Translations under genes and position numbers: made by a program
DNA from: Brevibacillus sp. JNUCC-41
GTDB lineage: Bacteria > Bacillota > Bacilli > Bacillales > DSM-1321
Assembly: GCF_014844095.1 (NCBI RefSeq)
Contig: NZ_CP062163.1
Coordinates: forward strand, 2,699,501 to 2,763,500
Length of the DNA stretch: 64,000 bases
Reading direction: 5' to 3'
Notes under the pieces: model-generated
What the model was told of the DNA's origin: nothing
Seen by the model: the letters and a program-made list of their open reading frames with translations, nothing else
Database searches by the model: none
Part shown: piece by piece, positions 1,579 to 17,326 of the stretch
How positions within the stretch are numbered: the first letter of the stretch is position 1
How the letters are laid out: each line of letters starts with the position of its first letter

Positions 1579-2982
1579 TTACAGATACTGTTTGTATTTC
1601 TTTAACTTATAGATGACTGTTGGCTGGCTGATGCCCAAATGTTCTGCCATCTCGTATGTGGTTTTACATTTTTTCCATGCTTTTGCAATCAGTTGCCTTT
1701 CAACCCTTTCCAGAGTTTTCTTTAAATCGAAATTCTCTTCACAATCCTGTTCGATTGCAAGGAAGGTGGAGTCTTCAGGCTGTTCAATTTGCCCTGTGAT
1801 GGATTGCGGAAGGTGTTCCGGAAATATAATTGGTTCTTCGATGGTCAGGATTAACCGTTCAATCAAGTTTTCTAATTCCCGTATATTTCCGGGCCAATGA
1901 TAATGAGTCAAAACTTCATACGTCGATGGATGGATTTTTTTGAATTTCTGGTATTTATCACTGGTTTTCTGTAAGTAATGCTGAATTAAGAGAGGGATAT
2001 CTTCTTTACGTTCATGTAATGCCGGAATCTGGATGGGAATCACATTCAAACGATAGAATAAGTCCAATCTAAACTTACCTTGACTTACCATCTCCTTCAA
2101 GTCTTGATTAGTTGCTGCAACCAGGCGGAAGTTAATATGGCTTTCTTTTTTTCCACCGATGCGCTTTATCTTTTTTTCCTGTAATACTTTCAGTAATTTA
2201 GCTTGCATGGCAAGTGGGAGTTCCCCGATTTCATCCAAGAAAAGAGTTCCGCTGTCAGCCTGCTCAATCAGGCCTTGCCTCCCTTGTTTATTTGCCCCTG
2301 TAAATGATCCCGGCTCATAGCCGAATATTTCCGATTCAAACAAGCTATCAGGTATCGTACTGCAATTCACTTCGATAAAAGGTTCTTTCTTTCGGTTGCT
2401 TTGGTCATGAACTGCACGGGCAAAAGTGCTTTTCCCTCCCCCGGAAGGTCCTAATAATAGAATCGTGGCATCGGTTTTTGCAACATTATGGATCGTTTTT
2501 AAAATATGCTTCGTTTCATTACTTCTAGCAATCAAATAATGGTAATCCAGTTCCTTTTCTCTTAAATCCTCGACTTCGGTTTGATAGCCTTTTATTTTTC
2601 GTTGTAATTGTTCAAATTGATCCTGCAATTGCAGAATCTCGGTTTGATCCTGACCATAGCTGATTGCCCTGACGAGAAGTCCGTCCTTATTAAAAATGGG
2701 ATAGCCAGTCGACATGACAACATGACCCGTTTTCGTTTCCTGCATTATCCGCATCGCTTTCTTTTCTTTTAAAACAATCGCATTGATGGAAGGTGTGAGA
2801 AGGCCCTCGCTTTCTAATTGATAGACGGAGGTACCGATATAAGAGTCACTTTCCATACCATAAATCTCCCAAAGCTTTGGGTTGGAATATAAAATGATTC
2901 CGTCTTGATCGGTAATGAGAATGTTATTATTCGATGTTTCAATAATCTTATTTAGTTCTTCCTCCAGCATATCATCGTACAT
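1579..2982 (-). CDS. Sigma-54-dependent transcriptional activator (PAS, AAA+, HTH)
   Basis: This 467-residue enhancer-binding protein activates RNA polymerase carrying sigma-54 (SigL). In order it has a PAS sensor (about 1-115), a coiled-coil linker (about 115-148), an AAA+ domain with Walker A GPSGGGKS near 178-186, a GSFTGA loop (225-230, against the usual GAFTGA) and Walker B near 245-254, and a Fis-type helix-turn-helix at the C terminus. The layout resembles RocR-type activators of amino acid catabolism. It is divergent from the ureohydrolase operon; the gap holds a -24/-12 promoter (3143-3158) and an inverted repeat (3073-3096). It therefore most likely controls that operon, with the PAS domain sensing the substrate; the signal is unknown. 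Confidence 0.9.
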   Translation of the reverse strand: MYDDMLEEELNKIIETSNNNILITDQDGIILYSNPKLWEIYGMESDSYIGTSVYQLESEGLLTPSINAIVLKEKKAMRIMQETKTGHVVMSTGYPIFNKDGLLVRAISYGQDQTEILQLQDQFEQLQRKIKGYQTEVEDLREKELDYHYLIARSNETKHILKTIHNVAKTDATILLLGPSGGGKSTFARAVHDQSNRKKEPFIEVNCSTIPDSLFESEIFGYEPGSFTGANKQGRQGLIEQADSGTLFLDEIGELPLAMQAKLLKVLQEKKIKRIGGKKESHINFRLVAATNQDLKEMVSQGKFRLDLFYRLNVIPIQIPALHERKEDIPLLIQHYLQKTSDKYQKFKKIHPSTYEVLTHYHWPGNIRELENLIERLILTIEEPIIFPEHLPQSITGQIEQPEDSTFLAIEQDCEENFDLKKTLERVERQLIAKAWKKCKTTYEMAEHLGISQPTVIYKLKKYKQYL

Positions 2983-3439: not shown

Positions 3440-3523
3440 TTGAAAAGATGGAAGTTTGTATGACATCTGCCATTGCAGTGGAGTGAAAAATAATAGCAGA
3501 TTTAGAATTTAGGAGGATGTTAC

Positions 3524-4523
3524 ATGATGAAGTATCAACCGAAAGACTCATTCAAATCACCCCGTTTTTGTGGAGTGCGTACGTTTATGCGGCTCCCATT
3601 TGTTGAACGGGTAGATGAACATATGGATTTTGTCATTACGGGAATTCCTTTTGATTCCGGGCAATCATTTAGAACGGGTGCGAGATTCGGACCAGAAGCC
3701 ATTCGCGATTTTTCAATCCTTTTACGTCCTTATAATCCAGAACAAGATATTAATATTTTTGACTATATATCCGGAATTGATTATGGGGATATTCCGATCA
3801 TTCCGGGGTATATTTCTGAAACATATAAAAAGATCGAGGAAGAGCTTACCCCCGTCATTGAAAAAGGGATCATTCCCATTTCATTGGGGGGGCGATCATT
3901 CCATTACGCTAGGGGAGTTACGTGCGATCGTAAAAAAACATGGTCCAGTTGCCCTGCTTCAATTCGATGCTCACTCTGATACTTGGGATAGTTATTTTGA
4001 TCAAAAGTATAATCACGGAACCGTTTTTCGCCGCGCGATAGAAGAGGGTCTCATCGATGTATCACGATCTCTTCAAATTGGTATGAGGGGCGGTCTGTAT
4101 GGACCGGAAGATCTTCAGGATGCCCGGGATTTAGGTTTGGGCGTTTATACGACAAACGATTATAAACGTATCGGGGTCGAAAAGATGCTAAGGGTCATTC
4201 ATGAGCGTGTTGCGGATGGTCCGGTGTTTTTATCCTTTGACATTGATTTCTTAGATCCGGTCTATGCTCCAGGAACGGGTACCCCTGAAGTTTCAGGAGC
4301 CAGCATTGATGATGCTTTAGCCTTAGTGAGAGGATTGACGAATATAGATTTTGTTGGATTCGATCTTGTTGAGGTTTTACCATCATACGATCACGGACAA
4401 ATCACGGCTGCCGCAGCCGCTAATATTGTCTATGAATTCATCACACTCATCGCTCTCGCAAAAAAAGGGGAACTGGAGAAAAAAGAGAGAGCCGGAGATT
4501 TGGAAACCCAGCTTAACAAGTAA
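3524..4523 (+). pseudogene. Agmatinase/guanidino-acid ureohydrolase, frameshifted
   Basis: The two frames together make one ~332-residue ureohydrolase (arginase/agmatinase fold). These binuclear Mn or Ni enzymes release urea from guanidino compounds. The first frame covers the N-terminal part with F-R-T-G-A-R-F-G-P; the second carries the metal motifs GGDHS, FDAHSD and SFDIDFLDP and the conserved E in LVEV. The frames switch at a run of seven G (3886-3892) where six would keep GGDHS in frame. AGGAGG (3511-3516) serves ATG 3524 or 3527. It is first in a sigma-54 operon with a symporter, an aldolase-family enzyme and a dehydrogenase. Sequence style suggests a guanidino-acid hydrolase or guanidinase rather than biosynthetic SpeB, but the substrate is unknown. 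The frameshift may be real or a homopolymer sequencing error. Confidence 0.8.
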
Positions 4524-4623
4524 TTCCTCATTTTTACTGGAAAGAAGGAAGGTATCGGTGTAATCCCTTCCTTCCCTCTTTACAAAGCGATAGAACATAA
4601 CAAGCCCAAAAGGAGATGTGTAA

Positions 4624-6063
4624 ATGCATATTTTGGATATATCGATCATGATTCTATATTTTTCTGTTTTAATCATTGTGGGAGTAATCGGATCCAGACG
4701 GGCAAAAACGGCAGATGATTTCATTGTGGCAGGACGTAATCTTGGTCATTTTATGTATTTATCCTGTTTAGCTGCTGTGATATTAGGGGGTGCTTCTACT
4801 CTAGGAACAGCAAAGTTAGGTTATCAGTTTGGGATATCCGGTATTTGGCTAGTGGTGATGATCGGGCTCGGCATTATCGCTATCGGGTTGTTTTTAACAA
4901 ATAAGATATTTAATTTAAAAGTATTGACGATCAGTGAAATGCTTGAGAAGCGCTACAACTCTCAGACAAGATTGATCAGTGCCCTTGTCTCTGTTATCTA
5001 TACATTCATGCTGACTGTAACGCAAGTGATTGGGATGGGGACGATTTTACATGTTTTGGCTGGCTGGAATTTAACGGTTTCCATGATAGTCGGGGGTGGG
5101 ATCGTTTTATTTTATACAATATTAGGAGGTATGTGGTCAGTCACCATGACTGATGTCGTGCAATTCGTCATCATGACGATCGGTATTTTCTTTATCATGC
5201 TTCCGTTGAGCATCTCTAAGGCAGGAGGGTGGGGCTCGCTTAAAGAGAGTCTCCCTGCATCACATTTCGAGCTAGGCAACATTGGCGGAGAGACAATTTT
5301 TCAGTATTTCCTACTATTTACTCTAGGGGTAGTTGTTGGCCAGGATATTTGGCAGCGTCTTTTTACTGCACGAACCAAAGCAGTTTCTCGTGGCGGAACG
5401 ATTGGAGCGGGACTATATAGTGTTTTTTATGCAATTGCAATCAGTATCATTGGAATGTGCGCTTTTATTATCCTTCCCGATTTAGGAGATCCACAAAATG
5501 CATTTACCAGCATAGCGATGGTAACTTTACCTGCTGGTCTATTGGGGGTTGTCATTGCGAGCGTGGTATCTGCCCTAATGTCCACAGCTTCAGGAACTTT
5601 GCTAGCTTCGTCCACTTTAGTCGTTAATGACATCATTAAAAAATATATTGGTCCAAAAATGAGTGAACGACAATTTTTAAAAACATCCCGAATTACAACT
5701 TTAACGATCGGTGTATTGACCATAATCGTTTCGATATGGATTCAAGATATTTTAGTAGCATTGGATGTAGCTTACGCCATTTTATCCGGTGCTGTGTTCT
5801 TTCCGATCATCCTTGGTTTCTTTTGGAAAAGGGTCACGGCCACAGCGGCATTTTACTCCATTCTGGCCAGCATGATCGTTATTATTGTGGGATTGATGAT
5901 AAATGGACCTTCCTCCACTCAACCAATTCTGTACGGGCTTGCTACTAGTTTTGTCGTCATCACTACGATTACCTTCCTAAGTTCCAATAATGATCAAAAG
6001 AACAAAAGTGAAGTAAAGCAAGATCTAAAGGGTAAAGCTGACATGGACACAATGGCTAATTGA
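4624..6063 (+). CDS. Sodium:solute symporter (SSS family)
   Basis: This 479-residue membrane protein has about 12-13 hydrophobic segments and an N-terminal stretch typical of the PutP/PanF family (R-R-A-K-T-A-D-D-F-I-V-A-G-R). It would import a small organic solute with Na+. Start ATG 4624 follows AAAGGAG closely. It lies 100 nt after the ureohydrolase and just before the aldolase-family gene, so it probably imports the substrate of this sigma-54 operon. A hydrophilic lysine-rich tail ends the protein. The substrate cannot be read from sequence. Confidence 0.85.
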   Translation: MHILDISIMILYFSVLIIVGVIGSRRAKTADDFIVAGRNLGHFMYLSCLAAVILGGASTLGTAKLGYQFGISGIWLVVMIGLGIIAIGLFLTNKIFNLKVLTISEMLEKRYNSQTRLISALVSVIYTFMLTVTQVIGMGTILHVLAGWNLTVSMIVGGGIVLFYTILGGMWSVTMTDVVQFVIMTIGIFFIMLPLSISKAGGWGSLKESLPASHFELGNIGGETIFQYFLLFTLGVVVGQDIWQRLFTARTKAVSRGGTIGAGLYSVFYAIAISIIGMCAFIILPDLGDPQNAFTSIAMVTLPAGLLGVVIASVVSALMSTASGTLLASSTLVVNDIIKKYIGPKMSERQFLKTSRITTLTIGVLTIIVSIWIQDILVALDVAYAILSGAVFFPIILGFFWKRVTATAAFYSILASMIVIIVGLMINGPSSTQPILYGLATSFVVITTITFLSSNNDQKNKSEVKQDLKGKADMDTMAN

Positions 6064-6105
6064 TGGTTCGGCAAAAAAAAGGAAAAATTGAGGAGGAAAG
6101 TAAAA

Positions 6106-6867
6106 ATGACAAAGACAATTTCCCTGCAACCGGCAACATTCAATACATTGGAAGAAGAGCGCACTCACCGGAAGCAACGGTTGGCAGCTTCATTCCGTCT
6201 TTTTTCAAAGTTTGGTTTCGATGAAGGGATAGCTGGCCATATTACGGTCCGTGATCCTAAATATACAGACCATTTCTGGGTTAATCCTTTTGGGATGCAT
6301 TTTAGTCAAATTTCCGTTTCGGATCTAATATTGGTTAATCATAAAGGTGATATTGTAGAGGGTGAACATTCCGTGAATGGTGCTGCCTTTGCCATTCATT
6401 CTGAAATTCATAAAGCGCGACCGGATGCGATTGCAGCGGCGCATGCTCATTCGGTATATGGAAAGACATGGTCTTCCTTAGGGAGACTATTAGATCCGAT
6501 TACACAAGATGCCTGCCAATTTTACAATGACCATGCATTATTTGATGATTTTACTGGTGTGGTTTATGCATCCGAAGAAGGTAAGCGCATTGCTAAGGCT
6601 TTAGGTCAATACAAAGCTGTCATCCTCCGCAACCATGGATTGTTAACGGTCGGCCAATCTGTAGATTCAGCTGCTTGGTGGTTCATAACGATGGAACGGT
6701 CATGTCAAGCTCAGATAATGGCTGAATCTGTTGGTAAGCCGATTTTTATAGAAGAAGAGTATGCAAAGTTAACAGCAGAACAAACAGGAACGGAATATGA
6801 GGGTTGGCTGAGTTTTCAGCCTCTTTGGGACAGAATCAAAAAAGAGCAACCGGATTTCTTGAAGTGA
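6106..6867 (+). CDS. Class II aldolase/adducin-family protein
   Basis: The 253-residue protein has the class II aldolase/adducin fold, with the metal-binding HAH motif (A-A-A-H-A-H-S) mid-protein and a later N-H-G-L motif near residue 180. Family members are Zn-dependent aldolases, epimerases or decarboxylase-like enzymes acting on sugar phosphates or hydroxy acids. I place the start at ATG 6106 because AGGAGG (6091-6096) lies 9 nt before it; an upstream TTG at 6088 precedes that ribosome site. It follows the symporter by about 40 nt. With the neighbouring 2-hydroxyacid dehydrogenase it suggests degradation of a hydroxy or keto acid, but the reaction is not determined. Confidence 0.85.
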   Translation: MTKTISLQPATFNTLEEERTHRKQRLAASFRLFSKFGFDEGIAGHITVRDPKYTDHFWVNPFGMHFSQISVSDLILVNHKGDIVEGEHSVNGAAFAIHSEIHKARPDAIAAAHAHSVYGKTWSSLGRLLDPITQDACQFYNDHALFDDFTGVVYASEEGKRIAKALGQYKAVILRNHGLLTVGQSVDSAAWWFITMERSCQAQIMAESVGKPIFIEEEYAKLTAEQTGTEYEGWLSFQPLWDRIKKEQPDFLK

Positions 6868-6956
6868 TCATCATGCACGGCATGATATAGTCGCAACGGA
6901 TTGCCTTCCAATAATACAGGGAAAAGGGAATCGGAGGGTCTTGAGGAGGTTTTATA

Positions 6957-7946
6957 ATGTCTGGTTCTAAGAAAATGGCACCTTCACTTTATATCAGGGT
7001 CGATATACCGGAAAAATACATCAATGAGTTTAAGGAGATTTGTTCAGAAGTTGTTGTCGAGCCATGGGAATTCGGTGAACCTGAACCACAGCCAACAGTT
7101 GATTTATCAAAGTTTGATGTCATTTATACGCAAGGGCTTCATGATAATCTTAACATTATAAAAAAAGCTCCTAGGATTAAATGGGTCCATTCAGACAGTG
7201 CTGGAGTGGAGGCCATGCTGAATGAAGATATAGAAAACAGCGATGTCATCATCACCAATGTCAAAGGCTGCACATCAGTCCCGATAGCGGAGCATACAAT
7301 TGCGATGCTATCTTCGTTAGCAAGAGGCATACCGACAATGATCAGAAATCAAATAAACAAAACCTGGGTTGAAGTTCCTGTGAAAGATCTTGAAAATGCG
7401 ACAGTGGGGATAATTGGGTATGGTGATATTGGCTATGAGATAGCAAAGCGATGTAAAGCACTAGGCATGACCGTTATCGGGTGCCGCCGGAATCCCTCAA
7501 AGAGGAACAAAGAATACGAACCTGCTGATTTGATAATGGGTATGGATCAAGTGGATGATGTCCTTTCCATGTCCGATTTTGTCGTCTTGGCACTGCCGTA
7601 TACACAAGATACCTCATACTTTTTTAATAAAGAACGCTTAAATAAAATGAAAAAAGGCAGCTATGTAATTAATGTCGGCCGCGGCAATACGATTGTGGAT
7701 GAAGATTTAATCGATTCCTTAAACAATGGGCAAATAGCAGGAGCGGCTCTAGATGTGTTTGAAGTAGAACCTTTACCTAAGGATCACCCTTTCTGGCAGC
7801 TGGAAAATGTCATGGTTTCCCCGCATAATGCTTATAACTCTTCCAAACACATAGATCGTGTGATGGAATTATTCCTGAAAAATTTAAAGCTTTTTTCTGA
7901 CGGTAAGCCCCTAATGAACGTTGTGGAAAAAAAACTTGGTTATTAG
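6957..7946 (+). CDS. D-isomer-specific 2-hydroxyacid dehydrogenase
   Basis: The 329-residue NAD(P)-dependent dehydrogenase interconverts 2-hydroxy and 2-oxo acids. The Rossmann motif GYGDIG lies near residue 150. The catalytic triad is visible as Arg in N-V-G-R-G, Glu in D-V-F-E-V-E-P and His in V-S-P-H-N-A. GAGGAGG precedes ATG 6957 at normal spacing. It is last in the sigma-54 operon, about 90 nt after the aldolase-family gene, and a weak terminator hairpin follows (8022-8057). Its partner substrate presumably comes from the ureohydrolase or aldolase step; this is inference. Confidence 0.88.
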   Translation: MSGSKKMAPSLYIRVDIPEKYINEFKEICSEVVVEPWEFGEPEPQPTVDLSKFDVIYTQGLHDNLNIIKKAPRIKWVHSDSAGVEAMLNEDIENSDVIITNVKGCTSVPIAEHTIAMLSSLARGIPTMIRNQINKTWVEVPVKDLENATVGIIGYGDIGYEIAKRCKALGMTVIGCRRNPSKRNKEYEPADLIMGMDQVDDVLSMSDFVVLALPYTQDTSYFFNKERLNKMKKGSYVINVGRGNTIVDEDLIDSLNNGQIAGAALDVFEVEPLPKDHPFWQLENVMVSPHNAYNSSKHIDRVMELFLKNLKLFSDGKPLMNVVEKKLGY

Positions 7947-8021
7947 TAGTAATGGACTCATTGTAAGAAAATACTTTATAGAATAGTGTTCATTATTGTT
8001 GATGAGGACATAAATTGAGAG

Positions 8022-8057
8022 ACTGCAAAAGCCTAGAAAGCTTTGTGGTCTTTTTTA
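8022..8057 (+). terminator. Probable intrinsic terminator of the ureohydrolase operon
   Basis: GACTGCAAAAGC pairs imperfectly with GCTTTGTGGTC and is followed by a T6 run. It lies about 75 nt after the dehydrogenase stop. Confidence 0.6.
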
Positions 8058-8094
8058 TATTTTAGACATCATGAACTAGTAACCGGTTGATTTA

Positions 8095-8129
8095 TTTCAT
8101 TTATGAAAGATTATATTTCAGAATTGAAA
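8095..8129. promoter_or_regulatory. Two tandem upstream activator sites (TTTCA-N4-TGAAA)
   Basis: Two palindromes share the same core: TTTCA-N4-TGAAA at 8095-8108 and 8116-8129. The second extends to 9-bp arms (8112-8133). Their centres are 21 bp apart, two helical turns, so two activator dimers would sit on one DNA face. They lie about 75-110 bp upstream of the -24/-12 promoter at 8202, a classic enhancer layout. The likely binder is the activator encoded at 12896. Confidence 0.7.
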
Positions 8130-8201
8130 TATAAATTAAGATTTAGGCGATTTACCATTTTAATAATCTGAATAATCAACAAATATTATAGTTGTCTGTT
8201 T

Positions 8202-8217
8202 TGGCATGAGAATTGCA
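8202..8217 (+). promoter_or_regulatory. Sigma-54 (-24/-12) promoter of the pxp-acc operon
   Basis: TGGCATG-N4-TTGCA matches the sigma-54 consensus with exactly 10 nt between GG and GC. Transcription would begin near 8228, giving a leader of about 28 nt before TTG 8256. Confidence 0.85.
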
Positions 8218-8255
8218 ATGGTTTAGTATAAATCCAATAAATGAGGTGAAGTCCA

Positions 8256-9125
8256 TTGACCCGTTACGAATATGGCGGTGATGAGTTTATTTTTGTTGAA
8301 TTAGCTGAGGCAATGAGTCTTGAAACAAATTTTCAAGCAATGGCTATTACTAAGGTGTTACGAAAAGAGAAAGTATCAGGAATTTTGGATATTTGTCCTT
8401 CCAATGCTTCCTATATGATTCGGTTTAATCCAGATCTCATTCATCCAGATGACTTAATTTCAAAATTGAAAGAACTTGAAAAATATGTTTCCTTGGAAAA
8501 CTTTGAAATAACTGCACGTGCAGTAGATGTACCCATATTATTTGAAGATCCTTGGACACATGAGGCATTAATGCGTTTTAGAGATCGGCATCAGGATCCA
8601 ACATCAACAGATATTGAATATGTGGCACATACAAATGGCTTTCATACGAAAGAAGATTTAATTAAATCAATTACGGATGCCCCTTATCTGGTTTCGATGA
8701 TAGGCTTTGTACCGGGCTTGCCATGGTGCTATCAAATGGTTCCAAACGAGCAGCAAATCGAAGCACCTAAATATGTTCGCCCTCGAACATATACGCCAGA
8801 GAGGGCATTCGGATTCGGCGGTTCATTTGCCGTTATATATCCGGTTCAAGGTGCAGGTGGTTATCAATTGTTTGGAACTGCTGCAGCACCGATCTTTCAA
8901 AAGGAGCAACGTTTACATGATTTTAAAGAGTCAATGACCTTCCCGAGACAGGGCGATGTTTTTAGATATCGAAGCATTTCCATGGAGGAGTACGAAGATA
9001 TTCGAAAACAAGTTGAAAATGGGGAATTCCGTTATTTGACGAAGGATATAACCTTTAAACCTAAAGATGTTCTCGGAAATCCAAATGCGTTTTCAGAATC
9101 TGTGATAAGGAGGTTATATGCATGA
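8256..9125 (+). CDS. pxpB: PxpB/KipI-family subunit (allophanate-hydrolase-subunit-1 domain)
   Basis: The 289-residue protein belongs to the KipI/AHS1 family. With the KipA partner it forms the ATP-dependent half of 5-oxoprolinase PxpABC; the same two domains form the carboxyltransferase of urea carboxylase. The typical G-F-V-P-G-L-P motif is near residue 150 and the R-T-Y-T-P-E-R-A-F-G-F-G-G stretch near 180. Start TTG 8256 is set by GAGGTGA (8243-8249). It is first in a five-gene operon behind a sigma-54 promoter, and overlaps pxpC by ATGA. Because biotin carrier and carboxylase genes follow, this copy may work on a carboxylated substrate rather than plain 5-oxoproline. Confidence 0.85.
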   Translation: MTRYEYGGDEFIFVELAEAMSLETNFQAMAITKVLRKEKVSGILDICPSNASYMIRFNPDLIHPDDLISKLKELEKYVSLENFEITARAVDVPILFEDPWTHEALMRFRDRHQDPTSTDIEYVAHTNGFHTKEDLIKSITDAPYLVSMIGFVPGLPWCYQMVPNEQQIEAPKYVRPRTYTPERAFGFGGSFAVIYPVQGAGGYQLFGTAAAPIFQKEQRLHDFKESMTFPRQGDVFRYRSISMEEYEDIRKQVENGEFRYLTKDITFKPKDVLGNPNAFSESVIRRLYA

Positions 9126-10120
9126 TTAAAGTTATTAACCCTGGCCTTCAAACGACTGTTCAAGATTATGGGAGAATAGGCTTTTATGAAGTGGGTATGC
9201 CACCATCGGGAGCCATGGATAAATACTCCTTCAGGGCAAGCAACTTTCTTGTTGGGAACGATGAAAATGCAGCTGTTCTCGAGATTACTTATATGGGGCC
9301 AGTCTTAGAATTCCAACAAGATGTAACCGTTGCTATTGCAGGAGGGGAAATACCACCAAAAATTAATGATCAGTATGTTCCGATGTGGGAAACATTGGAA
9401 GTTAAAGCTGGGGATGTTTTGTCCTTTGATTTTGTTAAACAAGGAGCTCGGGTGTATTTAGCGGTAGCCGGCGGAATTGAAGTGCCGCTTATTATGGAAT
9501 CACGGTCCACATATACATTGTGCGGAATTGGAGGTTTCGAAGGAAGACCACTTCAAGCTGGGGACTTTTTGAAAATCGGTAATGCAAACCAATCAAAGAT
9601 TGCAATCGGAACACGCATAAGTGATGAATTAATTCCGGTCTTCTCAAAAACGAATATAATACGTGTTGTTGTAGGATTGTGCAGTTATCGCCTTACTGAA
9701 GAAAGTAAAAAACGCTTTTTCTCCATCGATTGGACGGTTACAACGGAAGCAAACCGTGTTGGCTACCGTTTTAAAGGGGAGCGTTTGAATTTTGTAGAGC
9801 GTCAACAACCATTTGGAGCCGGCAGCAATCCTTCAAATGTTGTGGATTTAGGGTATCCTATCGGATCGATTCAAGTACCAGATGGTGTCGAACCGATTGC
9901 TTTGTTAAACGATGCTGTGACAGGTGGAGGCTATGCGACGATTTGTACAATTATCAGTACGGATTTAGACAAAATGGCACAAATCAAAACAAATGAGAAG
10001 GTACGCTTTGTGGCTATTGACATTAATGAAGCCCTCGAGGCAAGAAATGAATACAAAGAAAAAATCCATCAAATGAAAAAACAAGTATTAGGACAAATAG
10101 GGGGAATCAATCATGGCTGA
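9122..10120 (+). CDS. pxpC: PxpC/KipA-family subunit (allophanate-hydrolase-subunit-2 domain)
   Basis: The 332-residue protein has the KipA/AHS2 hallmarks: N-terminal P-G-L-Q-T-T-V-Q-D-Y-G-R, then M-P-P-S-G-A-M-D, and a C-terminal P-I-G-S-I-Q-V-P-D-G region. KipA pairs with KipI to form 5-oxoprolinase PxpBC or, fused, the carboxyltransferase domain of urea carboxylase. Translation is coupled at both ends: its ATG overlaps the pxpB stop, and its last 8 nt overlap the next gene. It should form a heteromer with 8256-9125. A diverged paralogue is at 15830. Confidence 0.87.
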   Translation: MIKVINPGLQTTVQDYGRIGFYEVGMPPSGAMDKYSFRASNFLVGNDENAAVLEITYMGPVLEFQQDVTVAIAGGEIPPKINDQYVPMWETLEVKAGDVLSFDFVKQGARVYLAVAGGIEVPLIMESRSTYTLCGIGGFEGRPLQAGDFLKIGNANQSKIAIGTRISDELIPVFSKTNIIRVVVGLCSYRLTEESKKRFFSIDWTVTTEANRVGYRFKGERLNFVERQQPFGAGSNPSNVVDLGYPIGSIQVPDGVEPIALLNDAVTGGGYATICTIISTDLDKMAQIKTNEKVRFVAIDINEALEARNEYKEKIHQMKKQVLGQIGGINHG

Positions 10121-10361
10121 ACAAAAAACAGTTCTATCACCAATCCCAGGAGTATTTTATCGCAAACCCGCTCCCGATAAGGACGTGTACGTAAAAGAAG
10201 GAGATACAGTTAAGAATGGTGACGTTCTTGCTATGGTGGAAGTGATGAAAAACTTCTATGAAATTAAAGCAGAAACAGATGGAGTTCTTGCACAATTCTT
10301 TGTAGAGGACGAGGACATTCTAGACGCAGGACAGGAAATAGCGGTAATCATTGAACAGTAA
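10113..10361 (+). CDS. accB: Biotin carboxyl carrier protein
   Basis: This 82-residue protein is a single biotinyl/lipoyl domain without the long linker of housekeeping AccB. The biotinylation site is V-E-V-M-K46-N, a variant of the usual A-M-K-M. It would carry carboxybiotin between the carboxylase encoded next and the PxpBC pair, whose domains match a urea-carboxylase transferase. It overlaps pxpC by 8 nt. It probably serves this operon rather than fatty acid synthesis. Confidence 0.88.
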   Translation: MAEQKTVLSPIPGVFYRKPAPDKDVYVKEGDTVKNGDVLAMVEVMKNFYEIKAETDGVLAQFFVEDEDILDAGQEIAVIIEQ

Positions 10362-10392
10362 TCAATTTTGAATAAGGAAGGAGGAAAAGTAA

Positions 10393-11745
10393 ATGGGCTA
10401 TTTTAAAAAGGTGCTAATTGCAAACCGAGGGGAAATTGCTAGGAGAATTATTCGCACTTGTAAAAAGGAAGGTATTCAAACAGTCGCTGTCTATTCTGAA
10501 GCCGATGCAGAGGCTCCTTATGTCAGTGAAGCGACGGAAGCTGTATGCATCGGCCCTGCTCAAGCGAAAAAGAGTTATCTTGATATTGAAAAAGTGATTC
10601 AGGTAGCAAAAGAAACACATGCAGATGCTATTCATCCTGGGTATGGGTTCTTATCTGAAAATGCGGAATTTGTACGCAGATGTGAGGAAGAAAATATTGT
10701 CTTTATCGGTCCTTCTGCGGAAACGATACACATTATGGGCAGTAAGCTTGAAGCTCGTACCCAAATGCAAATGGCGGGCGTAAGGGTTGTGCCAGGTACG
10801 GATAAAAGCATTGAGTCAGTTGACGAAGCATTGCTGATTGCGAACGATCTTGGCTATCCACTCATGTTAAAAGCTAGCGCCGGTGGTGGTGGTATTGGGA
10901 TGCAGCTTGTTCAAAATGATGCCGAGTTAATAAAAGTGTTTGATGCGACGAAGCAACAAGCTACTTCATTTTTTAAGGATGGAACTGTCTTTTTAGAAAA
11001 ATGGATTTCAAAACCCCGCCATATTGAAGTGCAAATTGTCGCTGATACATACGGAAATGTCTTACATTTATTTGAACGGGAATGTTCAGTACAGCGCCGA
11101 AATCAAAAGGTGATAGAAGAAAGCCCTTCGCCATTTCTTAATGATACCCTTCGAAAAGAATTGTTGGAAGCAGCCATTCGAGGTGTAAAACAAATCGATT
11201 ATACAAATGTAGGCACAATGGAATTCATTTTTGATGAAAATCAAAATTTCTATTTTCTTGAAATGAACACTCGTCTGCAAGTAGAGCACCCAGTAACTGA
11301 AGAAATAACAGGAATAGATTTAGTTGAACTACAGTTGAAAATAGCTGCGAAGGAAAAACTGCAGATTACACAGGAAGAGATAAACAAAACAGGACACGCG
11401 ATTGAAAGCAGACTTTACGCAGAAGATCCTAGTACTTTCTTTCCTAGTCCTGGTGTAATTTCTAGGTTGAAATTACCCGAAAACGATGTAAGGTTGGATT
11501 TTGGCATCGTCGAAGGTAGTGCGGTGACCCCTTTTTATGATCCGATGATCGGTAAAATTATTGTTCACGGAATAACACGTGATCAAGCAATCTCAAAAAT
11601 GCAGGGAGTGCTTGAAGAAATTGAAGTACAGGGAGTTAAAACAAACCTCTTGCTTCTCAAACAAATCATGAAAAATAACCAGTTTATTAGTGGTAATTAT
11701 ACGACTCAATTTTTAGCAGAAAATAAAGTTCAAGTTGAGGGGTGA
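10393..11745 (+). CDS. accC: Biotin carboxylase (AccC family)
   Basis: The 450-residue ATP-grasp enzyme carboxylates biotin using ATP and bicarbonate. Standard features are the N-terminal V-L-I-A-N-R-G-E-I-A, the glycine-rich K-A-S-A-G-G-G-G near residue 160, the R-E-C-S-V-Q-R-R-N-Q-K motif, and the catalytic E-M-N-T-R-L-Q-V-E-H-P near 290. AGGAGG lies 8 nt before ATG 10393. Its length equals housekeeping AccC, but no AccA/AccD genes are nearby. The only transferase-like partners in the operon are PxpB and PxpC, which points to an amide, urea-like or lactam acceptor. Confidence 0.9.
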   Translation: MGYFKKVLIANRGEIARRIIRTCKKEGIQTVAVYSEADAEAPYVSEATEAVCIGPAQAKKSYLDIEKVIQVAKETHADAIHPGYGFLSENAEFVRRCEEENIVFIGPSAETIHIMGSKLEARTQMQMAGVRVVPGTDKSIESVDEALLIANDLGYPLMLKASAGGGGIGMQLVQNDAELIKVFDATKQQATSFFKDGTVFLEKWISKPRHIEVQIVADTYGNVLHLFERECSVQRRNQKVIEESPSPFLNDTLRKELLEAAIRGVKQIDYTNVGTMEFIFDENQNFYFLEMNTRLQVEHPVTEEITGIDLVELQLKIAAKEKLQITQEEINKTGHAIESRLYAEDPSTFFPSPGVISRLKLPENDVRLDFGIVEGSAVTPFYDPMIGKIIVHGITRDQAISKMQGVLEEIEVQGVKTNLLLLKQIMKNNQFISGNYTTQFLAENKVQVEG

Positions 11746-11750
11746 AAGCA

Positions 11751-12515
11751 ATGTATAAGGTAGATTTGAACTGTGATATGGGTGAGAGCTTCGGCCTTTA
11801 TGAATTAGGCTATGATGAAGAATTAATGCAGCATATTACCTCGGCTAATATTGCATGTGGTTTTCATGCCGGAGATCCCCATGTTATGAGAAAAACAGTG
11901 GAAATAGCAAAGAAATATGATGTAGGGATTGGTGCACATCCAGGTTTTCCAGATTTATTGGGTTTCGGTCGTCGCTTCATGACCTGTACACCCTCAGAAA
12001 TAAAAGACTATGTAATGTATCAAGTAGGCGCCTTAAGAGAATTCAGTGCAGCAGCAGATGTCAAAATCCAGCATTGTAAACCACACGGAGCTTTATTTAT
12101 GAAAGCAATGGAAGATAAGACTATAGCACGAGCAATATTAGAAACAATTCATGAAATCGATCCAAATATGATCATATTTGCGCTTAGCCAATCGGAAGTG
12201 ATGGAAGAAGCTATAAAAATGGGTGTCCCTGTTGCAAAAGAAGCTTATGCTGACAGGGAGCATACTGAAAGCGGGTCCATTTTGCTAACGAGAACAGGCG
12301 CACGAATCAATGATTATGAAGAAATGGCACAGCGAGTTGTTCGTATGGTCAAAGAAGGAAGAGTCATCACACACGATGGAAAAGATGTTTCCATTAAAGC
12401 AGAGACCATTTGTATACATGGAGATACACCAGGAGCGCCGACTCTGGCTAAAAAAGTTGTAGAAGCTTTAAAGGGGAGTGGCGTCGAGATTGTCCCTATT
12501 AATAAGATCATCTAA
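11751..12515 (+). CDS. pxpA: 5-oxoprolinase subunit A, LamB/YcsF family
   Basis: The 254-residue LamB/YcsF protein begins with the family signature V-D-L-N-C-D-M-G-E-S-F-G and contains C-G-F-H-A-G-D-P and G-A-H-P-G-F-P-D. PxpA does the hydrolytic step in the PxpABC 5-oxoprolinase, yielding glutamate. I choose ATG 11751 because GAGGGG (11738-11743) gives normal spacing and the family usually starts here; an in-frame GTG at 11742 overlaps that site. It is last in the sigma-54 operon and a clear terminator follows. With the carboxylase genes present, the true substrate could be a related lactam. Confidence 0.88.
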   Translation: MYKVDLNCDMGESFGLYELGYDEELMQHITSANIACGFHAGDPHVMRKTVEIAKKYDVGIGAHPGFPDLLGFGRRFMTCTPSEIKDYVMYQVGALREFSAAADVKIQHCKPHGALFMKAMEDKTIARAILETIHEIDPNMIIFALSQSEVMEEAIKMGVPVAKEAYADREHTESGSILLTRTGARINDYEEMAQRVVRMVKEGRVITHDGKDVSIKAETICIHGDTPGAPTLAKKVVEALKGSGVEIVPINKII

Positions 12516-12628
12516 TAAGATACTTGTCCTAAAATGTATATTGGTATAGTAGTGGGGTTCTAATGAATGAACTATGCTCTTTAAAATAGGACAGTCCTAA
12601 AATAGGATTAATAGATAGTTGACTAGTA

Positions 12629-12665
12629 AATGACTCCGGTATTGTTTGCCGGAGTCATTCTGTTT
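12629..12665 (+). terminator. Terminator after the pxp-acc operon
   Basis: Perfect 11-bp stem (12629-12639 with 12649-12659), 9-nt loop, short T-rich tail. Confidence 0.75.
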
Positions 12666-12895
12666 AGATCCCAATATAACGGATTGTATTGTAAATGCCT
12701 TCTAGACTCTCTTCAATTAATTTGTTAACTTCTCAAACTAAGCCGTAGTTACTTCACTAGTTGTTGAAACAAAGTATAGATATAATTGACCGAATAATCG
12801 AAATCATATTTATATTAAAATACTTCTAAATACTTATCCTTAACTAAAAAAAGTATAATAAAATAAAGATTCCGTAATCGGGAGGGGTGAGTAAG
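12666..12895 (+). promoter_or_regulatory. Upstream region of the second activator gene
   Basis: This AT-rich stretch has no ORF. A possible sigma-A promoter is TTGACC (12786-12791) with TATATT (12811-12816) at a loose 19-nt spacing. No -24/-12 motif was seen here, so the activator operon itself is probably not sigma-54 dependent. Confidence 0.3.
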
Positions 12896-14935
12896 TTGAT
12901 TATTTGGAACGATATTCTTAAACCGATTTCCGTATATGTTAATATACATTGCACCATTGGAGCTGTCATTCAAAAATTATCAAATCAAAAAGCGAATATT
13001 GTGTTTGTAAAGGATAAGGGGTCTTTAGTGGGCTATAGTACTATCGAGATTCTAATGAACCAAATTGCTCAAAATGAAGACTTATCAAAGCCAATTATCT
13101 ATAAAAATGATATTTTAAAAGTCCCACAGTTTTCGCCTGTTGAATTTTTCCATAACGTTACTCTTATTATAGGGGAGGATGCCAATGGAGAAATTATCGG
13201 CTTCACTACAATTGAACAGGCCCGAAATCAAATCAGTGAGCTGAATTTGAAGGATTTAAATCTCCTTTTACATGGAGCTGGGGTAGGAATTGTCCGAACG
13301 AATATCGATTACCAAATAGAATATATTAATGAAACAGCAGAAAGTATTTTAGGTCTCCACCGCTCATTTTTACAGTTTCGAGACTATAAAATGTTATTAA
13401 GTATCGATAAAAATCTTGATAAAGTAATGACTGGGGAAACTCTTATAAATGTGAACGCTTCTATTAATTTTAAATGCACAGTTGGTAATTTTTACCCTTT
13501 TAAGATGGAAGATAAAATAAAAGGACTCATTCATATTTTTTTCTCGCGTGAAGTTTTCGAGGATTCTGTTAAAGAATTAGACTTTGTAAGAAATCTGAAT
13601 TCTGATTTACAAACGGTATATGCTTCTTCCCAGGAACAAATACTCGTCATTGACGAAAGCGGAAAAATCATTCGAGTAGCGGGAATGTTTCTTCACGATT
13701 TTTGGAAAGTGGATAATCCAGAAAACATAATTGGTAAGAATATAAGTGAGTTTACAAGAAAAAACATTTTTCAGCCTAATGTTTTTGAACTATGTCAGAA
13801 ACAAAAGAACAAGGTTACATCGATTCAGGATTCTATGGGAAAAAGTAGAGTCTGGTCTGTAGCTACCCCGGTGTACCATGAAGGGAAATTAGAAAAAGTA
13901 GTTGTACTTTCAAGGGATATTACACAAGAAAGTTCCTCAATTCATTATCAGTCGGACGAAGGTTCTCAAACTCTACAAGATCATGATGATTTTAACAATA
14001 AACAACTTGTTTATCGTTCGAAAACAATTGAGCGCTTAGTAGTAGAGATAAAGCGAGTAGCCCAATTTAATTCGACTATTCTACTGGAAGGTGAATCCGG
14101 TGTTGGGAAAGAAGTATTTGTCCACCAAATTCATTCAGCCAGTCCTCGGAGTAACCAGCAGCTAGTCCGGATTAACTGCGGTGCTATTCCAGAGAATCTC
14201 ATTGAAAGTGAATTGTTCGGTTATGAGAAAGGGGCATTTACTGGTGCAGATAAAAATGGGAAAGCAGGGTTGTTTGAAATTGCTAATAACAGCACGCTTT
14301 TTCTCGATGAAATTGGTGAACTCCCTTTAAATATGCAAGTGAAGCTATTGCGTGTGTTGCAGGAACGAGAAGTGACTAGAATTGGCGGGACCCATCCAAG
14401 ACCTGTAGATGTTCGAATTATAACGGCAACCAATAAGGACTTACAAGAGTTGGTGAACCAAGGTGAATTCAGAGAGGATTTATACTACCGACTATATGTT
14501 ATTCCATTTAATATTCCGCCATTGCGTGAACGAAAAGATGATATCTTTCCCCTCGCCATTTATTTTTTGGAACAATTTAAAAAAATGTATGATATCAAGA
14601 AAAGTTTCACCCCAGAAGCCATTGAAGTTTTAGAGACATATACATGGCCGGGAAATGTAAGGGAACTTCAAAATATAGTGGAGCGCTTAACATTATTGGG
14701 AGAGGGAGAATGGATTAAACGGGAGCATGCATTGAAATTTTTGTACGGGGAAGTTCAAAAAAAGAAAAAACAACTATTAGTTTTAGAATTAATGCCGCTT
14801 AAAGAAGCGGTAGAAGAATTAGAAACTCAACTTATTCAAAGAGGGATGCAAAAATACGGCACTGCCGATAAATTATCTAAGGTACTAGGTGTTAGTCCTG
14901 CGACAATAAGCAGGCGGATGAAAAAGCTGAAATAA
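12896..14935 (+). CDS. Sigma-54-dependent transcriptional activator (CBS-like, PAS, AAA+, HTH)
   Basis: The 679-residue enhancer-binding protein has an N-terminal CBS-like region (about 1-110), two PAS-like domains (about 115-220 and 230-345), an AAA+ domain with Walker A G-E-S-G-V-G-K-E and an intact GAFTGA loop, and a Fis-type HTH ending in S-P-A-T-I-S-R-R-M-K-K. Start TTG 12896 is preferred because GGAGGGG lies 8-10 nt upstream; the in-frame GTG 12887 overlaps that site. It is placed between the two pxpBC pairs and is co-directional with the second. It is the best candidate to bind the tandem sites at 8095-8129 and drive the promoter at 8202. Confidence 0.9.
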   Translation: MIIWNDILKPISVYVNIHCTIGAVIQKLSNQKANIVFVKDKGSLVGYSTIEILMNQIAQNEDLSKPIIYKNDILKVPQFSPVEFFHNVTLIIGEDANGEIIGFTTIEQARNQISELNLKDLNLLLHGAGVGIVRTNIDYQIEYINETAESILGLHRSFLQFRDYKMLLSIDKNLDKVMTGETLINVNASINFKCTVGNFYPFKMEDKIKGLIHIFFSREVFEDSVKELDFVRNLNSDLQTVYASSQEQILVIDESGKIIRVAGMFLHDFWKVDNPENIIGKNISEFTRKNIFQPNVFELCQKQKNKVTSIQDSMGKSRVWSVATPVYHEGKLEKVVVLSRDITQESSSIHYQSDEGSQTLQDHDDFNNKQLVYRSKTIERLVVEIKRVAQFNSTILLEGESGVGKEVFVHQIHSASPRSNQQLVRINCGAIPENLIESELFGYEKGAFTGADKNGKAGLFEIANNSTLFLDEIGELPLNMQVKLLRVLQEREVTRIGGTHPRPVDVRIITATNKDLQELVNQGEFREDLYYRLYVIPFNIPPLRERKDDIFPLAIYFLEQFKKMYDIKKSFTPEAIEVLETYTWPGNVRELQNIVERLTLLGEGEWIKREHALKFLYGEVQKKKKQLLVLELMPLKEAVEELETQLIQRGMQKYGTADKLSKVLGVSPATISRRMKKLK

Positions 14936-14953
14936 CAAAGGGGGCGACAAGTA

Positions 14954-15829
14954 TTGTTTAATTTGCCTGAAACTCATTTTAATTTCGGGGGAGACGAATA
15001 CATTTATGCTGAAATTTCTCGTGAAATGAGAATTGAGAGTAACTTTAAAGCAATTGCGGTGACTGAGGAGCTGAGAAAAAGAGAAATTCCAGGCATTATT
15101 GATATTGTTTCATCCAATGCCTCCTATTTAGTTCGTTATAGTCCGGACATCGTCTCAGCAAGAGATTTACTGGATTATTTAAAAGAAATAGATTTAAAGA
15201 AAAGTAATCCTGAAAAATTAAATTTATCAGTACGAATAGTAGAAATTCCAGCATGGTACGACGATCCAGTGTCAAGAGAATATTCCCTGCGTTTTAAGGG
15301 CAGACACCCGGCCCCTGACTTAACAGATTTTGAATATGTGATGAAAGTAAATGGGTTTACAGACAAAGAATCATTTATTGAAACTCATTCAGAGACACCC
15401 TATTTAATTACGATGGTTGGATTTCTGCCTGGAACGGGTTGGCATTTTCCGCTTGGATTAAAGCCAAATGAGATCATTCAAGCACCAAAATATTATAGTC
15501 CCCGTACAGAAACTCCGGAAAGAAGCATTGGTATAGGTGGTGCGTTCAATGTGATTTATCCAGTCAATGGACCAGGCAGCTATCAACTAATTGGACGATC
15601 AGCTATCCCTTTAGTAGATAAAATAAACCCTTTAGAAGAGACTTCTTTTTTGGCAAGACCCGGAGATATATGGAAGTATCGTCCTGTTAAGGAATCTGAA
15701 TATAATGAGATCGAAAGCAATGTAAGTGCTGGAACATATATTAATAAAGTAAAAGAAATTGATCTTTCGCCACTTGAATATGTACAAAAGGGAAAAAAAT
15801 ATATCGATGAGCTCATGGAGGGTTTTTAA
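14954..15829 (+). CDS. pxpB: PxpB/KipI-family subunit, second copy
   Basis: This 291-residue KipI/AHS1-family protein is a diverged paralogue of 8256-9125 with the same G-F-L-P-G motif and P-R-T-E-T-P-E-R-S-I-G-I-G-G stretch. TTG 14954 follows GGGGGCG. It is 18 nt after the activator gene and abuts pxpC2, so activator, pxpB2 and pxpC2 look like one transcript. No biotin proteins accompany this pair; it may be a standard ATP-dependent PxpBC, share PxpA or the biotin proteins from the upstream operon, or act as a Kip-like regulator. Confidence 0.83.
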   Translation: MFNLPETHFNFGGDEYIYAEISREMRIESNFKAIAVTEELRKREIPGIIDIVSSNASYLVRYSPDIVSARDLLDYLKEIDLKKSNPEKLNLSVRIVEIPAWYDDPVSREYSLRFKGRHPAPDLTDFEYVMKVNGFTDKESFIETHSETPYLITMVGFLPGTGWHFPLGLKPNEIIQAPKYYSPRTETPERSIGIGGAFNVIYPVNGPGSYQLIGRSAIPLVDKINPLEETSFLARPGDIWKYRPVKESEYNEIESNVSAGTYINKVKEIDLSPLEYVQKGKKYIDELMEGF

Positions 15830-16807
15830 ATGATAGAAATTAAGGAGCCTGGGTTATGGACCACGGTACAGGATATGGGACGCGTCGGGAAGTATCATCT
15901 GGGTGTACCGCCATCAGGAGCAGCTGATAAATATTCATTTATTATTGGAAACCTTCTAGTAGGAAATCCAGCTGAATTTGCATCACTTGAGATGACATTA
16001 TTAGGGGGAAAGTTTGAAATTCATAGAAATTTAATTATCGCCCTTACAGGTGCTCCAATGGAAGCATACTTAAATCACCAACGATTATCTTTCTGGGAAA
16101 CCCATCAAGTAAAAGAAGGAGACATCTTAACGATAAAAGCTTGCCAACAGGGGGTGAAAAGCTATTTAAGTATCTCTGGTGGCATAAAGGTTCAAGATGT
16201 TTTAGGTAGTAAATCAACCTATGAACTAAGCCAGATTGGGGGCTTTTATGGCAGAAAGTTAGCTGTAGGCGATAGAATACAGATTAATGAACCACTGCCA
16301 GGAGCTTCAAAACAGGTTGGTAAATCTGTTCCACTAGAATTCGTCCCAACCTTTGATGACTTTCAAGAATTACGTGTCACGATGGGGTTATCAGGTTACT
16401 TGTTGAGCGATCAAGGGTTAAAAACTTTCCTCAATTCGGAATGGATCGTTTCGCATGAATCCAACCGGGTCGCTTACCGATATACTGGCCCAAGTGTAAC
16501 ATTCACTGAGCAATATCCACCATTCGGTGCAGGAACTAGTTTTTCGAATGTAGTTGATTTTGCGTATCCTATAGGATCTGTTATGTTTACAAATGAGGAA
16601 GAACTGATTGTTTTACATAATGATGCAATGACGGGTGGTGGTTTTGTCACAATAGGCACCGTCATAAGCCAAGATTTAGATTTAATTTCTCAATCTAGAC
16701 CTTTATCGAAATGTCACTTTATCACAGTTACCATTGATCAGGCCATCCAAGCGAGAGTAGATAGGAGGGGAAATATGGAAAAGTTGTTCAGCCTTATTAA
16801 AAGGTAA
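15830..16807 (+). CDS. pxpC: PxpC/KipA-family subunit, second copy
   Basis: The 325-residue KipA/AHS2 protein carries E-P-G-L-W-T-T-V-Q-D-M-G-R at the N terminus, V-P-P-S-G-A-A-D-K-Y and a C-terminal P-I-G-S-V-M-F. Its ATG directly follows the pxpB2 stop, so the pair is translationally coupled. It is clearly paralogous to 9122-10120 but diverged throughout, which argues for an old duplication or separate acquisition. Expected partner: 14954-15829. Confidence 0.85.
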   Translation: MIEIKEPGLWTTVQDMGRVGKYHLGVPPSGAADKYSFIIGNLLVGNPAEFASLEMTLLGGKFEIHRNLIIALTGAPMEAYLNHQRLSFWETHQVKEGDILTIKACQQGVKSYLSISGGIKVQDVLGSKSTYELSQIGGFYGRKLAVGDRIQINEPLPGASKQVGKSVPLEFVPTFDDFQELRVTMGLSGYLLSDQGLKTFLNSEWIVSHESNRVAYRYTGPSVTFTEQYPPFGAGTSFSNVVDFAYPIGSVMFTNEEELIVLHNDAMTGGGFVTIGTVISQDLDLISQSRPLSKCHFITVTIDQAIQARVDRRGNMEKLFSLIKR

Positions 16808-16868
16808 GTAATGATTTAAACTTTGGACAAACATAATAAAACTCATATCTATAACAGGAGCAAAGTGT

Positions 16869-16955
16869 ATGAGTGTATATGAAGAGGCTCAAAAAACACT
16901 CGATAGCAGAAGCGGAAATCAAGAGCTTATTGTCAATAAAGAGTTTAGATTATAG
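16869..16955 (+). CDS. Short 28-codon frame with a good ribosome site, unknown
   Basis: ATG 16869 is preceded by AGGAG at 8-nt spacing, and the hydrophilic 28-residue product starts M-S-V-Y-E-E-A-Q-K-T. It follows pxpC2 by about 60 nt. It may be a real small protein or the surviving 5' end of a deleted downstream gene. No family recognised. Confidence 0.3.
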   Translation: MSVYEEAQKTLDSRSGNQELIVNKEFRL

Positions 16956-17008
16956 TCGTTCCAATAAATATGTACTTTCGATTCCAAGGAATATGATTAT
17001 TACGTGAG

Positions 17009-17042
17009 CATATTTTAACTTGTTGGGTTGCTCTTTTTTTTA
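17009..17042 (+). terminator. Probable intrinsic terminator
   Basis: GAGCA and TGCTC close a loop of about 18 nt and are followed by a T8 run. It would end the activator-pxpB2-pxpC2 transcript. Confidence 0.5.
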
Positions 17043-17140
17043 TTAATGCAATATACCGTTTAAAAGCCCCCTCTTCATCTTTTTCTTGTATAGGACAATC
17101 TCTGATCAGGAAAAGCTGGATATAAGGAGGCGATGTATGA

Positions 17141-17233
17141 ATGGGTACTTTCGAAGTTATTTCCCTAATGCTAAGCTTTGGCATGTTTGTAATTGCTATT
17201 CTTGATTTTAAAAATCATGACAAGAATCCTTGA
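17141..17233 (+). CDS. Putative holin-like (type I) toxin peptide
   Basis: This 30-residue peptide starts M-G-T-F-E-V-I-S-L-M and continues as one hydrophobic helix with a short charged tail (D-F-K-N-H-D-K). This is the pattern of the small Firmicutes holin-like toxins, whose relatives in type I toxin-antitoxin loci insert into the membrane. AAGGAGG (17124-17130) lies 10 nt before ATG 17141; two other ATGs at 17133 and 17137 give unrelated frames. A strong terminator follows at 17327. An antisense antitoxin RNA would be expected on the opposite strand, but I cannot identify its promoter with confidence. Confidence 0.6.
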   Translation: MGTFEVISLMLSFGMFVIAILDFKNHDKNP

Positions 17234-17326
17234 AGATAATGATGGCCGGCCGATTATTTTGATCATTAATGGAAGCGTTTTAAAAAAATAGCGGATTAGG
17301 TATTGCCTCGATTTTTAAACTTGCAG

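Follow-up and report, generated by a model that had tools for sequence, protein, structure and literature searches.

What reaction would bring a KipI-KipA pair, two biotin proteins and a PxpA-type hydrolase together in one gene cluster? The question is raised by five open reading frames (ORFs) at positions 8256-12515, all on the + strand, of a 64,000-nucleotide stretch of the Brevibacillus sp. JNUCC-41 genome (contig NZ_CP062163.1), hereafter the window. We consider it probable, on the evidence of the sequences, that this cluster codes for a hydrolase and for a split amide (lactam) carboxylase that depends on biotin. The observations behind this reading are the gene content, the kinship of KipI, the kept residues, the conserved linkage of the genes and the sigma-54-like sites that the loci share.

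Five coupled genes for KipI, KipA, two biotin proteins and a hydrolase

The cluster begins with a KipI-type carboxyltransferase subunit (CT_C_D) that is urea-carboxylase-like (8256..9125; TTG start, 289 amino acids [aa]), which overlaps by 4 nucleotides (nt) with a KipA-type carboxyltransferase subunit (CT_A_B; 9122..10120; 332 aa). A stand-alone biotin carboxyl carrier protein (BCCP; 10113..10361; 82 aa; biotin site K46) overlaps KipA by 8 nt. A biotin carboxylase (BC; 10393..11745; 450 aa) follows after 31 nt, and a LamB/YcsF (PxpA-like) amide hydrolase (11742..12515; GTG start, 257 aa) overlaps the BC gene by 4 nt. Because of these three overlaps and the single gap, the genes look like one transcription unit. 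KipI matches PF02682 (CT_C_D) in a family scan. KipA matches PF02626 and also lies above the cut-off of TIGR00724, while BCCP and BC are above those of NF005457 and NF006367, respectively. The hydrolase scored 341 bits against NF003814, which has a cut-off of 226. A first-pass annotation of this DNA had described five coupled genes of these kinds without AccA or AccD, and the positions, strand and family models agree with it; inspection by eye found no accA or accD carboxyltransferase gene among the ORFs listed beside the cluster. Missing from that annotation were a second KipI-KipA pair, two sigma-54 activator genes and a sigma-54-like site at 8202-8217, all described below.

KipI groups with urea carboxylase

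KipI and KipA both scored higher with the urea carboxylase model than with the PxpB and PxpC models. Each missed the equivalog cut-off of its 5-oxoprolinase counterpart (KipI, 67 versus 145.6 bits for PxpB; KipA, 238 versus 500 bits for PxpC). The best score of KipA was with the 5-oxoprolinase/urea amidolyase domain model. TIGR02712, which describes urea carboxylase as a single chain, has a cut-off of 1304 bits that the separate proteins, at 126, 265, 27 and 577 bits, did not reach.

In an unrooted tree of KipI alone, in which urea carboxylases came from Bacilli only and for which the program warned of long branches meeting, KipI grouped with urea carboxylase and apart from PxpB (split support 100/99). 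The residues of KipI agree with the urea-carboxylase type and not with PxpB, and in a fold comparison 275 of them, nearly the full length, align with the urea carboxylase of Kluyveromyces lactis (PDB 3va7). By tree, residues and fold, KipI thus groups with the carboxyltransferase subunits of the urea carboxylase type. Fused urea carboxylases form a clade of their own in the same order, and one of them (G430) lies in a genome that carries the five-gene operon as well.

The biotin proteins are linked to KipI across relatives

BCCP contains the biotinylation motif EVMK, in which the lysine, as read from the sequence, is K46. M45 and K46 are kept at 95% or more in 71 BCCPs, and the BC residues K118, K160, H210, E277, E290, N292, R294 and R340, which we take to be the positions of working residues in the Escherichia coli enzyme, are kept at 95% or more in 68 BC rows. 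The PxpA-type hydrolase agrees with the canonical PxpA of the same genome at 45 of 48 conserved positions.

A scan of GTDB contigs returned 290 relatives of the KipI unit, of which we studied the best 80; these come from Bacillota, plus Rubrobacter-type and other Actinomycetota. The five-gene grouping recurs in both phyla down to 55% KipI identity and is therefore not due to chance. Of 81 KipI loci, 79 have BCCP and 68 have BC within 4 kb of PxpA (counts of KipA and PxpA are lower bounds, as ORF picking hides some of them in high-GC loci). We also compared the Bacillota KipI loci of at least 17.5 kb (39 of 49) with 20 hand-picked ordinary pxp loci. The KipI loci had BC in 34/39 and BCCP in 39/39, versus 1/20 for the ordinary loci with similar flanks. 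That one control locus (L245) has BC and BCCP matches inside its 20-kb stretch. Loci that lack BC mostly keep the biotin carrier, which suggests a carrier dedicated to KipI-KipA and a borrowed BC.

At closer range, KipI orthologues at 64% identity or more occur in 6 of 150 genomes of the order, own genome included; the other KipI matches listed were KipI2 (39-43%), fused urea carboxylase (26-31%) or PxpB-type. Among 299 genomes of the phylum there were 8 KipI matches at E ≤ 1e-20, with a clear orthologue only in G280 and the window's own genome. The arrangement in Peribacillus butanolivorans (L090) is that of the window, with 86-98% identity over the genes compared; the five operon proteins of its strain DSM 18926 are 94.6-96.4% identical to those of the window.

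A class sample of 60 PxpA loci, hand-picked with top matches first, held 6 loci of the KipI kind, 8 of family f173 and 1 with a lone piece of BC. Since the f173 gene order holds a PxpB-type KipI, the biotin genes either joined proteins of the KipI, KipA and PxpA kinds at least twice or were shared early. In another class, one locus (L089, 8852-15882) has PxpA-KipI-KipA-BCCP (ESMKM motif) together with genes for a class III aminotransferase, a MerR-like regulator and, in two overlapping ORFs, a permease-like protein; no BC is among its listed ORFs. The NCS1-like and other gene names at this locus come from sequence starts, without a family scan.

Neighboring genes in relatives point to an omega-amino acid

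Genes for a CoxL-type molybdenum (Mo) hydroxylase large subunit lie in 40 of the 80 loci (42 with two cut-off genes); the call per locus was 42 yes and 21 no, and 17 of 80 had too little flank to call absence. Other genes that cluster with the operon are CoxM (28 of 80), CoxS (25), CoxG (24), sigma-54 activators (22), class III aminotransferases (20) and aldehyde dehydrogenases (14). In the comparison of 39 Bacillota KipI loci with 20 ordinary pxp loci, CoxL was present in 28/39 versus 0/20, class III aminotransferase in 11/39 versus 0/20, aldehyde dehydrogenase in 11/39 versus 0/20 and sigma-54 activators in 19/39 versus 4/20. NCS1 permeases (4/39 versus 0/20) were not significantly enriched. 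Within 4 kb of PxpA, CoxL occurred in 25 of 81 KipI loci and in none of 46 comparison loci, one of which had CoxM; those 46 were defined by the absence of accBC and KipI, so that only the Cox comparison is usable.

The Mo genes lie downstream of the operon in some loci and upstream in others, and explaining their linkage on a quick KipI tree takes 11 changes or more; the link has thus been remade or kept repeatedly. All 40 CoxL proteins carry the form II motif, [AS]YRGAG. Form II enzymes are described, in the part of the source available, as being without the cysteine of true CO dehydrogenase and as having a disputed substrate (PMC7248562). Two loci (L098 and L104) contain genes that resemble molybdopterin genes; this resemblance, like the moeA-, moaA- and mod-like gene names used here, is taken from sequence starts without a family scan.

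GABA (4-aminobutyrate) transaminase models were matched by 14 of 21 aminotransferases at E ≤ 1e-150. The gene order in L099 is gabR (over cut-off), gabT, a succinate-semialdehyde dehydrogenase (SSADH)-like gene, KipI, KipA, BCCP, BC, PxpA, coxG, coxS, coxL, coxM. L118 reads GntR-gabT-SSADH-KipI-KipA-BCCP-BC-PxpA with gaps of -44 to 62 nt. The SSADH-like proteins of L099 and L111 fall slightly under the TIGR01780 cut-off (644 versus 646), and that of L118 passes (662). Both gabR and gabT adjoin the operon in L099 and L111, and gabT does so in further loci. The gene set of L099 and L118 is that expected for a path from a lactam through GABA and succinate semialdehyde to succinate, and the neighbors of the relatives point to a lactam that would give an omega-amino acid. 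In the Rubrobacter-type loci L138, L140 and L157, a ureohydrolase gene again lies close to genes for an SSS symporter and a GABA-transaminase-like protein, which would be compatible with agmatine or a guanidino acid entering the same path.

Sigma-54-like sites precede the operon

A sigma-54 (-24/-12) promoter-like site, TGGCATGAGAATTGCA, lies at 8202..8217 (+), with its last base 38 nt before the KipI start codon. The number of such sites in the window alone was not significant (3 matches versus 1.7 expected). Across the relatives, such a site stands upstream of KipI in 24 of 49 Bacillota loci and 24 of 79 overall, versus 15 of 804 other upstream regions (Fisher 4e-23, kinship ignored). The list of sites away from KipI has 17 entries, two of them in actinobacterial loci. 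Five stand before an aminotransferase, two before CoxG, one before a moeA-like gene, two before NCS1 permeases (one a poor match), one before an SSS transporter and five before other genes; one is inside gabT, behind gabR, and is probably due to chance. In L072 a site also precedes gabT. An aminotransferase-aldehyde dehydrogenase pair of L092 has an orthologue (73%) in the window's genome about 290 kb from the operon, and this pair has its own site, as does the next aldehyde dehydrogenase gene. The pattern supports, without proving, a single regulon. The likely regulator is a sigma-54-dependent activator (PAS, AAA and helix-turn-helix [HTH] domains) encoded at 12887..14935 (+).

A separate, ordinary pxpABC set in the same genome

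In the genome searched (5.49 Mb, single contig), we counted three KipA, two PxpA and four biotin carboxylases. The four are the operon BC, that of a true accB-accC (L006), a 449-aa BC and a pyruvate-carboxylase-sized protein. The 449-aa BC precedes an HMG-CoA-lyase-like gene, a name read from sequence without a scan. The second pxpA adjoins a pxpB-pxpC pair (L079, L003), so the organism already possesses an ordinary 5-oxoprolinase set. Plain 5-oxoproline is for this reason an unlikely substrate of the operon. Of the two targets named in the first-pass annotation, a biotin-dependent variant of 5-oxoprolinase is accordingly not favored, and another lactam is the better half. The genes beside the operon in relatives point to an omega-amino acid as product.

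Proposed reaction and alternatives

Urea carboxylase adds a carboxyl group to an amide nitrogen, and KipI-KipA would analogously carboxylate the nitrogen of a lactam and so ease cleavage of the ring amide. From the observations above we infer this N-carboxylation, the order of steps and the lactam as substrate. BC would carboxylate biotin on the small BCCP, using ATP and bicarbonate; KipI-KipA would move the carboxyl group onto the ring nitrogen; and PxpA would hydrolyze the activated ring amide. The carbamate product would lose CO2 to give an omega-amino acid, to be degraded further by an aminotransferase and an aldehyde dehydrogenase. The net cost would be one ATP per lactam opened, as with other ATP-driven lactamases. 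Because gabR, GABA transaminase and aldehyde dehydrogenase genes neighbor the operons of relatives, GABA is suggested as the product, and a tentative candidate for the substrate is its lactam, 2-pyrrolidinone, or a closely related compound. In many relatives the CoxL-type Mo hydroxylase may supply the lactam by converting a cyclic imine, for instance 1-pyrroline. A complete sigma-54-controlled route, from form II CoxL (1-pyrroline-type imine to lactam) through biotin-dependent N-carboxylation and PxpA opening to a GABA-type transaminase and semialdehyde dehydrogenase, is possible, if doubtful as a whole. In the window's organism, the distant aminotransferase-aldehyde dehydrogenase pair could serve the later steps.

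Several findings weigh against this proposal. Neither GABA transaminase (best 36%) nor this type of CoxL (43%) has a close counterpart in the window's genome, so the GABA and Mo context of the relatives may not carry over to this organism. The genes upstream of the operon in the window (ureohydrolase, symporter, class II aldolase and hydroxyacid dehydrogenase) are unusual. GABA-transaminase-like genes alone were not enriched (4/39 versus 0/20, p 0.29), one counted aminotransferase is hemL-like, and the Fisher tests ignore kinship. BC is missing at the locus in 6 of the 80 loci with full flanks, and G323, G280, G461, G478 and G462 have none there; PxpB-type KipI is also biotin-linked, in 8 of 60 PxpA loci, all of family f173. 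As to kinship, the KipI tree has the limits given above (no root, long branches, Bacilli urea carboxylases only, KipA outside it), and in the fold comparison 5i8i reached a Z of 21.9, just about 1 above the best PxpB-type chain. Among five further KipI loci, only L072 has a sigma-54 site, and L070, L071, L074 and L075 have none; KipI2 and CapA of the L076-L078 loci lack such a site upstream, as does the window organism's own capA. In three aldehyde dehydrogenase stretches of the same genome, 3 of 43 ORFs had sites, the third before an unrelated operon.

If the operon made an ordinary ATP-dependent 5-oxoprolinase (PxpABC), the BC and BCCP would be bystanders or half of a second acetyl-CoA carboxylase. 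PxpA does fit the models of 5-oxoprolinase subunit A, KipA has its best score with a 5-oxoprolinase/urea amidolyase domain model, and the BC belongs to the AccC subfamily. We nevertheless regard this as improbable: KipI and KipA fall far below the PxpB and PxpC cut-offs, the KipI tree and fold side with urea carboxylase, the genome has another pxpABC set and its own accB-accC, and BCCP is present in 79 of 81 loci. The same scores with the urea carboxylase model would suit a split urea or guanidine carboxylase, giving allophanate or carboxyguanidine, with PxpA in place of allophanate hydrolase, and both the window and some Rubrobacter-type loci have a ureohydrolase gene close by. The fused urea carboxylases are a separate clade in the same order, however, with both kinds in the G430 genome, and the neighbors of the operon are aminotransferases, aldehyde dehydrogenases and an Mo hydroxylase. 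Rfam gave no match in window positions 1-20000 and only RNA of an unrelated kind in 7 relatives. We regard this second reading as equally improbable. No allophanate hydrolase was seen among the listed neighboring ORFs, which were inspected by eye only, with no family scan of the genome.

A different cyclic or open amide (2-piperidone, hydantoin, an N-amidino-lactam or a cyclic imide) could be the target of the same biotin-dependent carboxylase if the GABA genes are limited to some lineages. This would suit a genome without close GabT and CoxL, the L092 aminotransferase, which is of a different subfamily (those of L093, L094, L096 and L097 are just as distant from GabT, at 33-34%), and the NCS1 permease and caprolactamase-like CapAB near KipI2 loci. 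It is countered by the gabR and gabT genes that adjoin the operon in relatives, and we think it unlikely, though less so than the two preceding alternatives. A biotin-dependent lactam carboxylase with PxpA as hydrolase is the reading we prefer. The four-subunit carboxylase and PxpA opener proposed in the first-pass annotation are supported by comparison, through the type of KipI, the kept BC and BCCP residues and the carrier linkage (79/81); urea or guanidine as acceptor is less likely.

Other features of the window

Directly 3' of the activator gene is the pair KipI2 (14954..15829, +; 41% identity to KipI) and KipA2 (15830..16807, +), which has no BC, BCCP or PxpA of its own. In G370, G376, G194 and L104 the activator-KipI2-KipA2 trio adjoins caprolactamase-like CapAB, and in G370 (L076) it also adjoins a BCCP. 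CapAB is encoded elsewhere in the window's genome (L176; 74-77% identity). The KipI2-KipA2 pair may form another carboxyltransferase or act together with CapAB.

Upstream of the operon are five genes that may belong to the system: a second sigma-54-dependent activator (1579..2982, -), an agmatinase/arginase-family ureohydrolase with a broken reading frame (3524..4523, +), a sodium:solute symporter (4624..6063, +), a class II aldolase family protein (6088..6867, +) and a D-2-hydroxyacid dehydrogenase family protein (6957..7946, +). The ureohydrolase gene is split over two frames and is one 332-aa ORF in P. butanolivorans L090; the broken gene is either a recent pseudogene or a sequence error. 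Within the A+T-rich intergenic region 5' of it, a short G+C-rich stretch (3260-3390) looks like a dispersed repeat element. Further along (26711-29700), a tandem pair of paralogs, each about 430 aa long and with an apparent C-terminal HTH part, comes after a peptidase-transporter group on the opposite strand.

Comparison with known systems

The gene families of the operon are known, and its five-gene order occurs in another group. To our knowledge, a biotin-dependent lactamase would, if true, be the first of its kind. We found no description in the open-licence literature of biotin genes acting with KipI-KipA-PxpA on a lactam, or of such a carboxylase, which is weak evidence of absence; the available portions of PMC5770610, PMC10620731, PMC7642360 and PMC3534580 hold nothing on biotin genes with KipI-KipA-PxpA. 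In Lactiplantibacillus pentosus, an extra accB-accC copy was assigned to lipid synthesis and pxpB-pxpC were reported apart, according to the part of PMC12427679 available. A 2011 study, as far as its available text goes, noted split genes for urea-carboxylase-type carboxyltransferases that had no known function and left open whether they partner with other biotin carboxylases (PMC3199775). The operon makes that question directly testable. If our reading is true, an N-carboxylation route is added to ATP-driven lactam opening, the names "acetyl-CoA carboxylase" and "5-oxoprolinase" that standard models give to such genes need correcting, and one group of form II CoxL "CO dehydrogenases" gains a possible role or substrate class. 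The complete route, if real, would further suggest that a large number of stray KipI-KipA pairs act as carboxyltransferases with borrowed biotin carriers.

Urea and guanidine carboxylases, such as the urea carboxylase of K. lactis (PDB 3va7), share BC, BCCP and a KipI-KipA-type carboxyltransferase with the operon, and the operon's KipI lies on the urea carboxylase side of the tree. They are single chains, whereas the operon encodes four separate proteins in a different neighborhood. The partner of urea carboxylase is an amidase-type allophanate hydrolase, in place of which the operon has a PxpA hydrolase. PxpABC has three protein kinds in common with the operon, including the 45 of 48 conserved PxpA positions; it differs in that the operon's KipI and KipA fall below the PxpB and PxpC cut-offs, KipI lies outside the PxpB clade and biotin genes are present. 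The f173 cluster PxpB-PxpC-AccB-AccC-PxpA (L196, L201, L205, L206, L211, L217, L225 and L234), an order also known from staphylococci, matches the operon in its five gene kinds and their order. Its KipI is of the PxpB type and falls in a separate clade, and its AccB, at about 145 aa, is longer. The CapAB proteins of caprolactamase are not known to be related to those of the operon. In mechanism, PxpBC is assumed to phosphorylate 5-oxoproline, according to the part of PMC13274462 available. Caprolactamase likewise opens a lactam with ATP and needs bicarbonate, with a carboxylated lactim as one of three proposed routes in the available part of PMC8453981, but CapAB works without biotin. By its title, PDB entry 9yx5 shows a long-chain acyl-CoA carboxylase complex of Mycobacterium smegmatis with MSMEG_0435-MSMEG_0436 bound. 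In this entry, chain V is KipA-like and chain W is KipI-like, and the AccA3 chain is shared. As the title has it, a KipI-KipA-type pair is thus physically with a biotin-dependent carboxylase; MSMEG_0435-0436 is docked on another carboxylase, whereas the operon pair has its own BC and BCCP.

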